50,237 nucleotides of DNA. It comes from Pannonibacter phragmitetus DSM 14782. Its GTDB lineage: Bacteria; Pseudomonadota; Alphaproteobacteria; Rhizobiales; Stappiaceae. The position numbers were made by a program, and so were the translations under genes. The DNA is taken from NCBI RefSeq assembly GCF_000382365.1, contig NZ_KB908236.1, forward strand, positions 1 to 50,237, written 5' to 3'. Within the stretch, counting starts at the first letter, position 1; each line of letters opens with the position of its first letter. This document shows positions 35,847-44,292 of the stretch, piece after piece. The notes under the pieces were generated by a model. That model did not search any database. It was not told the DNA's origin and saw only the letters and a program-made list of their open reading frames with translations.

Positions 35847-36214
35847 GATGGTTCGGCGGCTCCTGATGCGTTGTGCGCCTGCGCGGGGGCAGCCAATCGT
35901 CGTCCATTCCGGCGGCACTTGTCGAGGCCATGATTGCGGCAAAAAACCGGCAAGCGAACTGCGGCAGGATTTGGAACTTTTCAGGTCCAATCACCATCAG
36001 CCGTCAGCCATGCAATAGAAAAGAAACATCAGGAACAGGGCACGCCGCATGTAACGCGTGACCGGATTTTCCGGAATTTCTTTTCATCTCCTGATACTTC
36101 TGCGAGTTCCGCAGATATTCAGGCGGACACTACGAACTTTCGAACCTAAATGCTTGTCTGCTGTGTCAGCATCGAACGCTGGCAGCTGCAAGCGGAAAGA
36201 TAAAGGCCATTCAC
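35847..36214. promoter_or_regulatory. Divergent control region between amidase and NHLP genes
   Basis: These 368 bases should hold promoters for both the amidase and the precursor operon. I see a short hairpin TCTGCG-AGTTC-CGCAGA (36099-36115) and CCGG-ATTTT-CCGG (36062-36074), but no convincing -35/-10 pair. No gene is supported here. The region is somewhat AT-richer than its surroundings. Confidence 0.45.
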
Positions 36215-36559
36215 ATGACCAGTTCAACAGACCCGATGGCTCGCGTCCGCCTGCATGTTGAGGAAGCGCTGCTGGCGAAGGCTGGCGAAGATGCCGCCTT
36301 CCGCGCCCTTCTGCTGAGCGATCCGCGCGCTGCCCTGAAGCAGCTGCTTGGCGTGGACCCGATCCCCTCGCTCAAGATCCGCGTCATCGAGGAACAGGCT
36401 GGCGAGGTCACCCTCGTCCTGCCCCGCGCGATTTCGCAGAACGATCTGCCGGAAGAATTGCCGGATGAGCTTCTCGATTTTGCCTCTGGCGGCAATGCCA
36501 AGGAGTGCTGGTGGAAGTTCAACCAGTGGGCCTACAAGCAGGACTGGCTGCCCAAATAA
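36215..36559 (+). CDS. NHLP-type RiPP precursor 1
   Basis: A 114-residue precursor with a nitrile-hydratase-alpha-like leader: AFRALLLSDPRAALKQLLG, then IPSLKIRVIEEQAGEVTLVL and PEELPDELLDFASGG. This is the LLxDPxAALxxLLG...LKIxVVEE...LVLP...ELxDExLxxxxGG pattern of the NHLP leader family. The core after Gly-Gly (92-93) is 21 residues, with one Cys at 98 (NAKECWWKFNQWAYKQDW) and four Trp. The leader has an extra three residues before PDELLD relative to the other three. No signal peptide. First of four tandem genes. Whether the core is modified and excreted is inferred from the family. Confidence 0.85.
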   Translation: MTSSTDPMARVRLHVEEALLAKAGEDAAFRALLLSDPRAALKQLLGVDPIPSLKIRVIEEQAGEVTLVLPRAISQNDLPEELPDELLDFASGGNAKECWWKFNQWAYKQDWLPK

Positions 36560-36582
36560 CGCAATCCGGCAAGGAGAACAGC

Positions 36583-36918
36583 ATGTCTCATCTCACAGAC
36601 ACCATGGCATCCGCCCGCGCCCACATCGAGGCTGCGCTGATCGAAAAGGCCACGTCTGACGCAGCCTTCTGCGAGCTGCTGAAGAGCAATCCGCATGCCG
36701 CCCTGCGTGAGCTGCTCGGCAATGATCCGATCCCGTCGCTGAAGATCACCGTGGTGGAAGAGCGGGCTGGCGAAGTCACGCTCGTTCTGCCCCGCAAGAT
36801 CGCTCAGGACGAGCTGCCGGACGAGCTGCTTGATTACGCCTCAGGCGGTAACGCGCAGGAATGCTGGAACCAGTTCAAGAACGACTGGCTCTTCGGCCGG
36901 TTCGACAAGAAGAAGTAA
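36583..36918 (+). CDS. NHLP-type RiPP precursor 2
   Basis: A 111-residue paralogue of precursor 1. The leader carries ELLKSNPHAALRELLGNDPI, PSLKITVVEERAGEVTLVLP and DELPDELLDYASGG. The 22-residue core after Gly-Gly (88-89) is NAQECWNQFKNDWLFGRFDK plus two Lys, with Cys at 94, the same offset from GG as in its neighbours. The leader has one additional Cys (residue 30). AGGAG lies upstream of ATG 36583. It starts 23 bases after precursor 1. Confidence 0.85.
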   Translation: MSHLTDTMASARAHIEAALIEKATSDAAFCELLKSNPHAALRELLGNDPIPSLKITVVEERAGEVTLVLPRKIAQDELPDELLDYASGGNAQECWNQFKNDWLFGRFDKKK

Positions 36919-36950
36919 CCACTTATCACTTGATCAGAAAGGACATTCAG

Positions 36951-37283
36951 ATGACGTCCATGACAGATGCCGTTGCCGGCGCCCGTGCCCACATCGAGGC
37001 TGCGCTCGTTGCCAGGGCGACCTCCGACACGGCCTTCCGCGAGCTGCTGAAGAGCAACCCGCATGCCGCTATCCGCGAGATGTTCGGCAGTGATCCGATC
37101 CCCTCGATGAAGATCAGCGTCGTCGAGGAAGAGGCCGGCGAAGTGCTTCTCGTGCTGCCGCGCTCCATCGCCGAAGACGAGCTGCCGGATGAGCTGCTCG
37201 ATTATGCCTCCGGTGGCAGCCTCGACAAGTGCCTGCGTGACATCGGCTTCTTCACGCCGATCGAAGGCCGCGGCCTGTTCTGA
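36951..37283 (+). CDS. NHLP-type RiPP precursor 3
   Basis: A 110-residue paralogue. Its leader is almost the same as that of precursor 2 over ARAHIEAAL, ELLKSNPHAA and DPIPSMKISVVEE, and ends DELPDELLDYASGG (Gly-Gly 88-89). The 21-residue core is unrelated to the first two except for the Cys (94): SLDKCLRDIGFFTPIEGRGL. ATG 36951 follows AAAGGA. Leader-conserved, core-divergent paralogues are the usual mark of a RiPP precursor family sharing one maturation system. Confidence 0.85.
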   Translation: MTSMTDAVAGARAHIEAALVARATSDTAFRELLKSNPHAAIREMFGSDPIPSMKISVVEEEAGEVLLVLPRSIAEDELPDELLDYASGGSLDKCLRDIGFFTPIEGRGLF

Positions 37284-37294
37284 GGATGACAATC

Positions 37295-37636
37295 ATGAGC
37301 GAAATCATTGCCTATCCATTCGAAAAGGCCCGCGCCCTGCTGGAGGCCGAACTTCGGAGCAAGGCACAGTCAGACACAGCCTTCCGAGCTGCGCTTCTGA
37401 GCGATCCGCACGCAGCACTCCTGGATCTGCTCGGCACGGATCCGGTGCCCAGCCTTGCGATCCGCGTTCTGGAAGAAGCCGCAGGAGAGATCGTGCTGGT
37501 GCTGCCGCGCAGGATCGAAGCAGATGAACTGCCGGACGAGCTGCTCGATTACGCCTCCGGCGGCGCCTACAAAGGCTGCAAGGGCGACGGCTGGACCCAG
37601 GACAAGCTGAGCCGCATCGGCATCGATCCTTTTTGA
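37295..37636 (+). CDS. NHLP-type RiPP precursor 4
   Basis: A 113-residue paralogue with the most divergent leader: SEIIAYPFEKARALLEAEL, then AALLSDPHAALLDLLGTDPV, PSLAIRVLEEAAGEIVLVLP and DELPDELLDYASGG (Gly-Gly 89-90). The 23-residue core has one Cys (95), keeping the GG-X4-C spacing: AYKGCKGDGWTQDKLSRIG. ATG 37295 is preferred because GAGGA lies eight bases upstream; ATG 37286 is in frame. The ribosome-binding site overlaps the precursor 3 stop. A terminator follows. Confidence 0.83.
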   Translation: MSEIIAYPFEKARALLEAELRSKAQSDTAFRAALLSDPHAALLDLLGTDPVPSLAIRVLEEAAGEIVLVLPRRIEADELPDELLDYASGGAYKGCKGDGWTQDKLSRIGIDPF

Positions 37637-37652
37637 TCAGATCATTTGCATG

Positions 37653-37679
37653 GAGGCCGGGAGTTCCCCGGCCTCTTTT
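37653..37679. terminator. Intrinsic terminator after the precursor operon
   Basis: GAGGCCGGG and CCCGGCCTC form a 9-bp stem with a 5-base loop, followed by TTTT. It can also serve the convergent cbiM gene (stop at 37692). Confidence 0.85.
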
Positions 37680-37691
37680 CATGCCAAAGGT

Positions 37692-38372
37692 TCAGCCCGC
37701 CACATGAAGCCTTGCGTTGAACAGCGGGCTCCGGCTGAGGTGCTTCAGAGCCTTTGCGCCCGCCAGCACGCCGAGATCCACCAGCGGCTCCAGAATGATC
37801 ACGGTCATATAGGCCGCACCGAAGCTGGCCACGTCCGCCAGGTTCTCCGCAGAAAAGCCGTGGCCGTAGATGGCCCAGAAGGCCACCCAGGCAACAATGC
37901 CGCCCTGATAGGCGGTGGAAAGCGCCAGCGCCTGCGAGTACTTCAAGTCCACATAAGGCGTCGACGGCGCAATGATTCGCTTTGCCAGCAGGCTGATGCC
38001 AAAGAGCGGCACCAGCAGCGTGGTGACATTCATGCCATACTGCGGCAGGTCGAAGGGTGCAAAGAACAGCCCCTGCATCAGCAGACCGGCCGCCAGACCG
38101 ATGGCAGCAGCCCCTGCCCCGAACAGCAGCAGCAGGGTCGAGCCGAGAATCAGATGCACCTCGGACACGCCCACGGGGTGATGCGGCAGCACCTCGAAGA
38201 AGCAGAACACGAGCGCAGCCGTCATGATGCTGCGCAGGAGAAGCGGAATGGCACCGCCATTGGTCCGCAGATCGTCAATTGCGAGTTTTGCCGCAAGCCC
38301 GAAAGCCGCTGCCGCCGTGCCGTAACTCAGGATGATCTTCGCGCCTTCAACGACGCCTTCCTCGATATGCAT
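37692..38372 (-). CDS. cbiM: CbiM-type cobalt-transport membrane protein
   Basis: A 226-residue membrane protein with about six helices, starting MHIEEGVVEGAKIILSYG. The N-terminal Met-His is the metal ligand in the CbiM/NikM family, and VSEVHLILGSTLLLLFGAGAA matches the family's central block. It should be the substrate-specific part of an ECF-type Co2+ (possibly Ni2+) importer. The partner cbiN/Q/O genes are not present, so it may act alone or with distant partners. AAAGGA lies six bases before ATG 38372. A cobalamin riboswitch in the leader supports cobalt and B12 supply as its role. Confidence 0.85.
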   Translation of the reverse strand: MHIEEGVVEGAKIILSYGTAAAAFGLAAKLAIDDLRTNGGAIPLLLRSIMTAALVFCFFEVLPHHPVGVSEVHLILGSTLLLLFGAGAAAIGLAAGLLMQGLFFAPFDLPQYGMNVTTLLVPLFGISLLAKRIIAPSTPYVDLKYSQALALSTAYQGGIVAWVAFWAIYGHGFSAENLADVASFGAAYMTVIILEPLVDLGVLAGAKALKHLSRSPLFNARLHVAG

Positions 38373-38436
38373 GCTCGTTCCTTTCTGCGCCCGCCGCGCA
38401 TGGGACTGGGTGGGGCTTTGCGCCCGGTCATGTGAT

Positions 38437-38612
38437 GGACAGGTATCCTGGCTCACGGTTCACCGCTTCGCCTGCCTTCCCAGCCTGTGGGCCAGTGGCA
38501 TCGGGGCGTCGCTCGCCGTTTACAGTTGCGGGGGCAGCCGGGGAATCAGGCCTTGCCTCACATGCAAGCCCTTCACCCCGTTCCCTGATTTTTGCCGCAG
38601 CAGACCTCGTCT
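38437..38612 (-). ncRNA. Cobalamin riboswitch
   Basis: The leader of cbiM contains, in order on the reverse strand, GGGAACGGGGTGAAGGGC, the conserved core GGCTGCCCCCGCAACTGTAA, GATGCCACTG, GGCTGGGAAGGC, and the B12-box sequence GAGCCAGGATACCTGTCC. These are the hallmark elements of the AdoCbl riboswitch class. The B12 box ends about 65 bases before the cbiM start. High B12 should reduce expression of the transporter. Confidence 0.95.
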
Positions 38613-38909
38613 GTGCGGCCCATCAGCGGCACTCTAGCTCACACGGAAACAATGCCAAAGCATTTGTGCGGGCTTGCAAGGCTTCCACACACCGGCAAAA
38701 AGTATGAGCCTGCGGCGTCAAAGCGCCCTGAAATTGCCCGCTTTGACAGATCATTTCACAAAGCCGTTATGCCGGAGTAGTTTAACCTGCCTCACGGACG
38801 GTCATGTTCCGGCCAAAGACCTGTGTGTGACGCAGGTCACGGACCCGGATGGCAAGGTTGGGACATGGTTCCGGCGGTTTAGATTTCAGTTCTCAATCTG
38901 GAGCTTCAA

Positions 38910-42519: not shown

Positions 42520-44292
42520 TCACCCCTTCGCCGTCTCCCGGAACTGCAGATCGTAGAGCCTGCGATAAACACCGTCATGGGCCAGAAGCGCTTCATGCGT
42601 GCCGGTTTCCACCACGCGGCCCCGGTCGAACACGGCGATGCAATCCGCATCGCGCACGGTGGAAAGCCGGTGGGCGATGACGAGCGTGGTGCGGCCCTGC
42701 ATCAGCCGCTTCAGCGCGCCCTGCACCTTGGCTTCCGATTCCGCGTCAAGTGCCGAAGTCGCCTCATCCAGCAGGAGGATCGGCGCATCGCGCAACATGG
42801 CACGGGCAATGGCAATGCGCTGGCGCTGGCCACCGGAAAGCCGTCCACCGCCTTCGCCAACGAACGTGTCGTAACCCTGTTCCATCGCTTCGATGAACTC
42901 ATGGGCATTGGCATCCACAGCCGCACGGATGATATCCGCGTCCCCGGCGCCGGGGCGGCCAAGGGCGATGTTGTCGCGGATGGAGAGGTCGAAGAGGAAG
43001 GTATCCTGCGTCACCAGCGCGATCTGGTCGCGCAGGGAGGCGAGCGTCACCTGCCGGATGTCCTGACCGTCGATCAGAATGCGGCCCGTGCGGATGTCGT
43101 AGAACCGCTCCAGCAGCGAGAAGGTGGTGGACTTGCCGGCCCCTGACGAGCCGACCAGAGCGGTCACCTTGCCGGCTTCCGCAATCAGATCGAGGCCGTT
43201 CAGTACAGGCTTGTCACCATAGGTGAAATGCACGCCTTCAAACCGGACCTCGCCCTTGCCGGTCTTCAGCTCAACGGCATCCGGCGCATCCTCGAAGGCG
43301 GGCGGGCGGTCCAGCATCTCGAACATGAGACGCACGCCGACCAGATTGGAGCTGAGGTTCACATGCAGGCGGGCGAGGCGCTTCACCGGTTCATAGGCGA
43401 GCAGCAGCGCCGTGATGAAAGAGAAGAAGCCGCCGGGGTCCTTGCCCTGCTCGATAACGCTGAAACCGCCATAAAGGATGACCATGGCAATGGCGAAACC
43501 GCCAAGCGTTTCCATCAACGGCGAAGTGCGGGCCGTCAGCGCGGCAATGCGGTTGGCCCGGCGTTCCACATCACTGACCGCCTTGTCCATCTCGGCACGC
43601 ATCCGGTCCTCGACGCGGAAGGCCTTGACCACACGCACACCGATGGCGGTTTCCTGCACGGCAGAGACGATCTTGGTGGTCGAAACGAACTGTGACTTGG
43701 CGTGCTTGCGCACCCGGCGCACCAGCAGCGACACGCCGAAAACGGCCGGCGGCATGATCAGCAGCGCAATGGCGCTGAGGCCGGGGTCCTGAATGACCAT
43801 GACGGCGACGAGGCCCACAACGCTCAGGAGGTCGCGGCCGAGCGACAGAACCACCATGTCCAGCACGCTGCGGGCAGCCTGTGCATTGTGCGAAAGCCGT
43901 GTCGCCAGATCGCCCAGCGGTGTGCGGTCGAAAAAGGCCATGTCCTGCCGGGTGATGGTGCGGAACAGGCGGCGCTGGCAATCGGCGACAATGGCATTGC
44001 CGATCCGGCTCATCGTCACCTGCTGACCGTAGGTCGAGATGCCCTTGACCGCAAAGATCGCCATCACCGTAAAGGCAATCAGCCGGACCATGGACTGGTC
44101 GCGGTTGACGAAGACCTCGTTGATCACGTCACGCATGATCCAGGCACTGGCCGCGGTCGAGCCCGCAACAAGGCCCATGAACAGGAAGGACAGCAGATAA
44201 CCCGGCACATGGGCGCGGGCATTTTCGGAAACGAGACGCCGGATCACCTCATAGGTGCCATCCGGGTCCTGAAACCAGGTCTTGACGCTCAC
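42520..44292 (-). CDS. MsbA-like ABC exporter (fused membrane and ATPase domains)
   Basis: A 590-residue half-transporter that should work as a homodimer. Six membrane helices (residues about 30-320) precede the ATPase domain: Walker A GSSGAGKST, Q-loop VTQDTFLFD, signature LSGGQRQRIAIARA, Walker B ILLLDEATSALD and switch His in VIAHRLS. It is close to the MsbA/lipid-flippase and multidrug exporter group; lipid A core or phospholipid flipping is possible but not shown. ATG 44292 fits the N-terminal cytoplasmic elbow helix. No partner half-transporter is adjacent. Confidence 0.88.
   Translation of the reverse strand: MSVKTWFQDPDGTYEVIRRLVSENARAHVPGYLLSFLFMGLVAGSTAASAWIMRDVINEVFVNRDQSMVRLIAFTVMAIFAVKGISTYGQQVTMSRIGNAIVADCQRRLFRTITRQDMAFFDRTPLGDLATRLSHNAQAARSVLDMVVLSLGRDLLSVVGLVAVMVIQDPGLSAIALLIMPPAVFGVSLLVRRVRKHAKSQFVSTTKIVSAVQETAIGVRVVKAFRVEDRMRAEMDKAVSDVERRANRIAALTARTSPLMETLGGFAIAMVILYGGFSVIEQGKDPGGFFSFITALLLAYEPVKRLARLHVNLSSNLVGVRLMFEMLDRPPAFEDAPDAVELKTGKGEVRFEGVHFTYGDKPVLNGLDLIAEAGKVTALVGSSGAGKSTTFSLLERFYDIRTGRILIDGQDIRQVTLASLRDQIALVTQDTFLFDLSIRDNIALGRPGAGDADIIRAAVDANAHEFIEAMEQGYDTFVGEGGGRLSGGQRQRIAIARAMLRDAPILLLDEATSALDAESEAKVQGALKRLMQGRTTLVIAHRLSTVRDADCIAVFDRGRVVETGTHEALLAHDGVYRRLYDLQFRETAKG

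Follow-up and report, generated by a model that had tools for sequence, protein, structure and literature searches.

A four-gene array of one-cysteine NHLP precursors in Pannonibacter phragmitetus and its probable link to a remote GNAT acyltransferase locus

Prochlorosins are produced by one LanM enzyme that serves many dispersed precursors. Many NHLP (nitrile hydratase-like leader peptide) precursors with one remote enzyme were likewise described in 2010 (PMC2887384). In this natural combinatorial biosynthesis, reported by Haft, Basu and Mitchell for Pelotomaculum and Azospirillum B510, a genome encodes many paralogous NHLP precursors whose cores, short and variable, follow a GG junction, and a single remote enzyme of the YcaO or LanM type serves them all. 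The selidamides (phaeornamide, kamptornamide, and nostolysamides) are GNAT-acylated ribosomally synthesized and post-translationally modified peptides (RiPPs) that combine an NHLP or Nif11 leader and a GG junction with a GNAT maturase and a dual-function ABC exporter. Here we analyze a 50,237-nucleotide stretch of Pannonibacter phragmitetus DSM 14782 (contig NZ_KB908236.1, hereafter the window), which carries an array of four NHLP precursor genes at positions 36215-37636 of the plus strand. It is probable that this array belongs to a dispersed, co-regulated NHLP RiPP pathway that relies on selidamide-like acylation by GNAT enzymes and on C39 cleavage coupled to export.

In its parts list this pathway can be likened to the selidamides, of which it is a candidate member; the class is defined by an acyl-Lys or acyl-ornithine product. 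The selidamide GNAT NpuN is a tandem GNAT, as is the case here. Unlike the selidamide systems, Pannonibacter genomes lack a lanthionine synthetase, no peptide arginase was found (a weak test), two duplicated GNATs are present, the precursors are scattered over the genome, each core carries one Cys, and acyl transfer is predicted. The systems of 2010 share the multiple precursors, the short cores, and the remote enzyme, but not the GNATs and the exactly one Cys seen here. The array also shares with prochlorosins a central locus that serves dispersed precursors, but the P. phragmitetus genome has no LANC_like protein and a single Cys permits at most one thioether ring. The NHLP-Burk (TIGR03795) precursors of thiazole/oxazole-modified microcins have distant leader similarity, far below the cut-off, but these are YcaO-linked and place Cys at the very end. 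A literature search, which covered few subscription papers, returned no account of the features that are new here, namely a single Cys kept so strictly, a duplicated pair of GNATs, and a regulon. To our knowledge, no described RiPP class combines a lone Cys of variable position with an acyltransferase duplication on the same branch.

An initial annotation made from the sequence proposed four tandem NHLP-type precursors with cores of 21 to 23 residues and one Cys each, and this description holds. Precursor 1 (36215-36559, 114 aa) ends in the core NAKECWWKFNQWAYKQDWLPK (36494-36556), precursor 2 (36583-36918, 111 aa) in NAQECWNQFKNDWLFGRFDKKK (36850-36915), precursor 3 (36951-37283, 110 aa) in SLDKCLRDIGFFTPIEGRGLF (37218-37280), and precursor 4 (37286-37636, 116 aa, or 113 aa from the ATG at 37295) in AYKGCKGDGWTQDKLSRIGIDPF (37565-37633), all on the plus strand. 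Because the open reading frames are separated by only 23, 32, and 2 bases, a single operon is apparent. The TIGR03793 profile matches all four proteins (E 8.5e-14 to 2.9e-12) with scores of 51.2, 47.3, 49.5, and 46.3 bits, one of which exceeds the curated cut-off of 50.9. Judged from their sequences, the array proteins are NHLP family members of the precursor kind. Most leader positions are invariant up to GG, the leader ends in a conserved ELPDELLD motif, and the cores, of 21, 22, 21, and 23 residues, all place Cys five residues past GG. A GG junction followed by a paralogue-variable core is thus present, and cleavage at GG is predicted. The cores had also been said to diverge completely, which is correct between paralogues but not between orthologues. 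When the array is compared codon by codon with that of P. indicus, nonsynonymous differences are found at 4 and synonymous differences at 7 of the 86 core codons, and at 31 and 55, respectively, of the 361 leader codons.

What the close relatives keep is the number of Cys residues per core. We collected 75 distinct precursors (E <= 1e-20) from fetched loci rather than from a whole-genome census. Weaker rows were dropped before Cys residues were counted, among others those from C18, C2 (core GAQQCAISLVGSKLRT, one Cys), L063, L066, L126, L127, and L067:426-653 (no Cys), and the division into seven 'array genomes' (five Pannonibacter, two Rhizobium) and ten others was drawn after the cores had been seen. 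Exactly one Cys is present in all 52 ELPDELLD-type cores of the array genomes (6 to 9 such precursors per genome in the fetched loci), as expected for the one-Cys system that the initial annotation envisioned. Cys is the sole residue that occurs in every core (51/51 with a first regular expression, 52/52 with a relaxed one), and the last 88 leader residues contain 1 Cys among 4571 residues. The 12 Pannonibacter cores that follow a different NHLP leader are all free of Cys. So are all 11 ELPDELLD-type cores from the ten other genomes; homologues of this kind, which the initial annotation had named as evidence against its reading, thus exist outside the array genomes, where the set of GNATs differs as well.

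The location of this Cys is far less constrained. The GG-X4-C spacing, once called invariant and proposed for checking in homologues, holds for the four array precursors and for only 20 of the 52 cores (one of which, preceded by GGG, might also count as X5), such that the position is free and the number is fixed. Cys ranges from core residue 5 to 27, being within eight residues of GG in 26 cores, followed by five or fewer residues in 22, and neither in 4. Among 11 core families defined at 45% identity, one Cys in all 11 arose in 3 of 20000 residue shuffles, a figure that ignores deeper ancestry. A strict single Cys at any position suggests a putative one-cysteine chemistry. Furthermore, KP occurs in the tail of 9 of the 11 Cys-free relatives, and in the C-terminal-Cys class of 22 cores, Cys is followed by P in 10 and by K in 9; this comparison of tails hints at a Lys-to-Cys swap. 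Two other core types were observed in the fetched loci. A [TIV]SFSAF[IV]LYG... core with a Lys-rich tail (L077-L085) is near-identical in Pleomorphomonas, Azospirillum, Novispirillum, Rhizobium, and an Azonexus metagenome-assembled genome (MAG), a conservation above expectation for a RiPP core. In another genus of the family, three tandem NHLP precursors (L063 9031-10272, G034:C28) have long hydrophobic cores without Cys.

No maturation gene was found in the window itself, in line with the initial annotation. LanM, YcaO, and C39 proteins are absent among the 11 neighboring window proteins scanned, and genome-wide LANC_like and YcaO searches gave no match on the window contig (radical SAM enzymes were not searched for). 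The only ABC match on this contig in the NHLM search is an MsbA-like protein without a C39 part (42556-44157). The pathway is not absent from the genome, however, and processing in trans, as had been anticipated, is most likely. TIGR03793 has 12 matches at seven loci in P. phragmitetus, of which those on C18 and C2 are weak, and each of the five Pannonibacter genomes has 11 to 13 leader matches, a few of which resemble nitrile hydratase rather than precursors. Contig C8 holds two precursors, two GNAT acyltransferase-like proteins (GNATa and GNATb), a two-component system (response regulator and hybrid histidine kinase), a winged-helix-like protein assigned from sequence appearance without a Pfam match, a cNMP-binding protein, and export genes for a NodT outer-membrane channel, HlyD (TIGR03794, 303 bits, cut-off 156), ABC1 with a C39 peptidase (TIGR03796, 969 bits, cut-off 853), and ABC2 (TIGR03797, 707 bits, cut-off 709). 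C8 is the likely home of the modification, export, and regulation genes of the array. Of the enzymes that the initial annotation wished to see sought across the genome, the C39 exporter is thus at C8, one YcaO is on C18, and LANC_like proteins are missing.

An NHLM C39 exporter occurs in all 16 genomes searched. LANC_like proteins were found in 2 of 11 other precursor-bearing genomes (Rhizobium RU36D and Azospirillum) and in none of the five Pannonibacter genomes, and we therefore reject a LanM or class II lanthipeptide identity, in keeping with the initial annotation, which had recognized no lanthipeptide pattern. A UPF0489 peptide arginase was found in none of the five either, in a weak search to which the control genome also remained silent. 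P. phragmitetus has two further small loci that pair a GNAT with a precursor (L126 5202-10663, G000:C6; L127; L014 9607-10928, G000:C2). The one at C6 includes two ABC proteins, and the core at C2 likewise reads GG-X4-C. In Rhizobium RU36D, a second, separate NHLM exporter locus (L128, G061:C25) includes a LANC_like match.

Gene order in sister species connects the array with the GNAT pair. Three of these carry their arrays (8 precursors in G001, 8 in G002, and 7 in G003) immediately next to the genes for the GNAT pair, the regulator, and the kinase. In P. phragmitetus and P. indicus, the four-gene array lies between the amidase and CbiM genes, away from the GNATs, which together with the regulator and kinase stay with other precursors (two and one, respectively). 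An amidase protein query, used on the sister species to examine whether the purN-amidase site is empty, gave a match at E 1e-100 in P. indicus only. The exporter is separated from the array side by a set of chemosensory genes (MCP, CheA, CheB, CheR, and DUF3307) in G001, G002, and G003 as well as in Rhizobium RU36D (L122 3127-10597, L123 11667-19531, L124 2324-10115, and L125 12084-19804). These genes were identified by Pfam for G002 and for the G001 CheA, and the remainder by gene order and sequence starts. The set is absent at the corresponding place at C8 and at the Rhizobium MAG locus, the only places searched in those genomes.

A phylogeny of 34 GNATs resolves GNATa and GNATb as two sister clades, each with members from seven genomes and jointly supported at 100/99, and the GNATs beside Cys-free precursors are sister to both, with weaker support (85/83) at the joint fork. 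Hence the one-Cys trait and the GNATa/GNATb pair mark the same branch. This match is one evolutionary coincidence, not seven. The GNATa of P. indicus has a tandem GNAT fold, and a PDB sequence search with the GNATs returned weak matches to GNAT proteins, mostly over the N-terminal acetyl-CoA region only. A cognate GNAT, as typifies selidamides, is thus present by fold and neighborhood, in trans for this array, with its activity predicted.

A shared promoter element also ties the array to C8, and its regulatory role is putative. Comparison of upstream regions revealed a 22-nt box, TTGGAACTTTTCAGGTCCAATC, which lies at 35971-35992 (plus strand) and is shared with the GNAT/precursor intergenic region of C8 and with the sister-species arrays. 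It occurs once in the window, an exact match by construction, as the pattern derives in part from this site. Allowing one mismatch, 12 matches are found, which reduce to eight separate sites once four duplicate copies of a site are discounted; each precedes an array or a C8-type precursor/GNATa pair, and none appear at two to four mismatches in 1,025,611 bases of fetched loci, which are precursor-centered and partly overlapping. With a matrix built from the eight sites and a threshold reached by <0.5% of random 300-mers, 9 of 15 other precursor operons in the array genomes pass, several of them mutually orthologous and some with estimated gene starts. Of the seven operons scored in other genomes, none passes.

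These findings are consistent with the following scheme. The two tandem GNATs encoded at C8 would recognize the leader in trans and acylate the core, as in selidamides. The C39 peptidase of the NHLM exporter, by virtue of its family, would cut after GG, and the ABC1/ABC2/HlyD/NodT machine would secrete the peptide. Transcription would be linked to C8 through the 22-nt box, which the conserved response regulator or the winged-helix-like protein probably recognizes, with the two-component system perhaps driving the regulon. Judging from synteny, the array was presumably located beside the GNATs originally and relocated in the lineage of P. phragmitetus and P. indicus. The products might act extracellularly as lipopeptides or disulfide-linked peptides.

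Several observations weigh against this scheme. Acylation of the core is predicted from fold, gene neighborhood, and analogy, and the link between regulator and box is putative only. Six of the 15 further operons fall short of the box threshold (C24 and its orthologues in P. indicus and G001, the RU36D array, C2, and C6), with the RU36D array having a weak box just beyond the 300 bases. The core-type counterparts of the four array precursors number two in G001 and three each in G002 and G003, which is a partial match, and the core SLDKCLRDIGFF is seen only in P. phragmitetus and P. indicus. Pfam scores of the C8 GNATs are weak, that of GNATb being below the cut-off, and our GNAT profile was built partly from genomes that it then matches. 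The P-loop of GNATb (L009 11843-12817) reads RRQHLA and lacks the conserved Gly. Finally, one YcaO protein is encoded in each of the five Pannonibacter genomes and could act in trans. Regarding the P-loop, the GNATb of P. indicus (L074 5768-6742) reads RRRHLA, likewise without the Gly, which is kept in the four other aligned GNATb rows (L067, L068, L069, and L076).

The single Cys may be acylated, form a disulfide, or remain a free thiol. Because the one-Cys rule falls on the same branch as the GNAT duplication, we considered Cys acylation as the boldest reading: the duplication would have founded a branch of NHLP RiPPs whose acyl acceptor shifted from a C-terminal Lys (the KP-type tail of the Cys-free relatives) to a single Cys anywhere in the core, giving ribosomal thioester lipopeptides made as sets. 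A single regulon would control them, and its home cluster would in some species include a dedicated chemosensory pathway. We think this unlikely. It has a better chance of being true, if somewhat short of even, that no enzyme modifies the Cys, that the GNATs act on Lys, on another amine, or on other precursors, and that the Cys forms an intermolecular disulfide or anchors a partner. Dimerization or anchoring needs just one Cys, anywhere, Lys is present in 49 of the 52 cores, and Lys or ornithine is the acceptor of the known selidamide GNATs (PMC9505594, PMC13060382). Yet three cores lack Lys, the UPF0489 arginase was not found (in a search lacking a positive control), and the one-Cys rule marks the branch of the GNATa/GNATb duplication. 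This possibility is compatible with most of the dispersed GNAT pathway and differs on the Cys. We give little credence to a third fate, in which YcaO cyclodehydratase acting in trans turns the Cys into a thiazoline. NHLP leaders are known YcaO substrates (PMC12455567, PMC2887384), and the Rhizobium MAG (G062) has one YcaO, as do the Pannonibacter genomes. However, the neighbors of the P. phragmitetus YcaO gene at C18 (L013 7650-10016, G000:C18) are a weak leader match and one more small open reading frame, and RU36D, which carries a one-Cys array, gave no YcaO match.

Two explanations that deny the array a RiPP product are both very improbable. Separation from the GNATs, confined among the five Pannonibacter to P. 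phragmitetus and P. indicus, might indicate a decaying remnant cut off from its pathway, but the reading frames are open, the cores show the few codon differences from P. indicus given above (4 nonsynonymous, 7 synonymous, in 86), and the promoter box is kept in both genomes. Equally, the full-length proteins might be stable and folded with a non-RiPP role, as the leaders resemble nitrile hydratase alpha, with a score below the cut-off. The GG junction, the paralogue-variable tails, and the universal NHLM C39 exporter in the genomes searched argue otherwise. Moreover, the precursor structure model is of no help to this idea (mean pLDDT 59.6, lowest in the tail), and a folded leader is normal for NHLP proteins (PMC12455567).

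The genes around the array (purM, purN, an amidase, and a CbiM-like transporter) look unrelated to it. A terminator-like hairpin read by eye, GAGGCCGG-loop-CCGGCCTC followed by TTTT, is at 37653-37679 (plus strand). With only four T residues, it is not listed among the three terminator-like sites of the terminator scan (2.1 expected). A consensus promoter scan gave one promoter-like site within the array, on the opposite strand (0.5 expected). No Rfam family was found in the array or near it. A cobalamin riboswitch (RF00174, 98.7 bits) is at 38420-38639 on the minus strand, on the 5' side of the CbiM-like cobalt transporter gene (37692-38456).

Precursors that appeared to be orphaned can thus be joined to a definite enzyme pair, an exporter, and a promoter box. 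Since they are assigned to an enzyme pair, their chemistry is testable by co-expression of one precursor with two small enzymes. More broadly, RiPP mining that is based on gene clusters overlooks precursors that have been relocated away from their enzymes.
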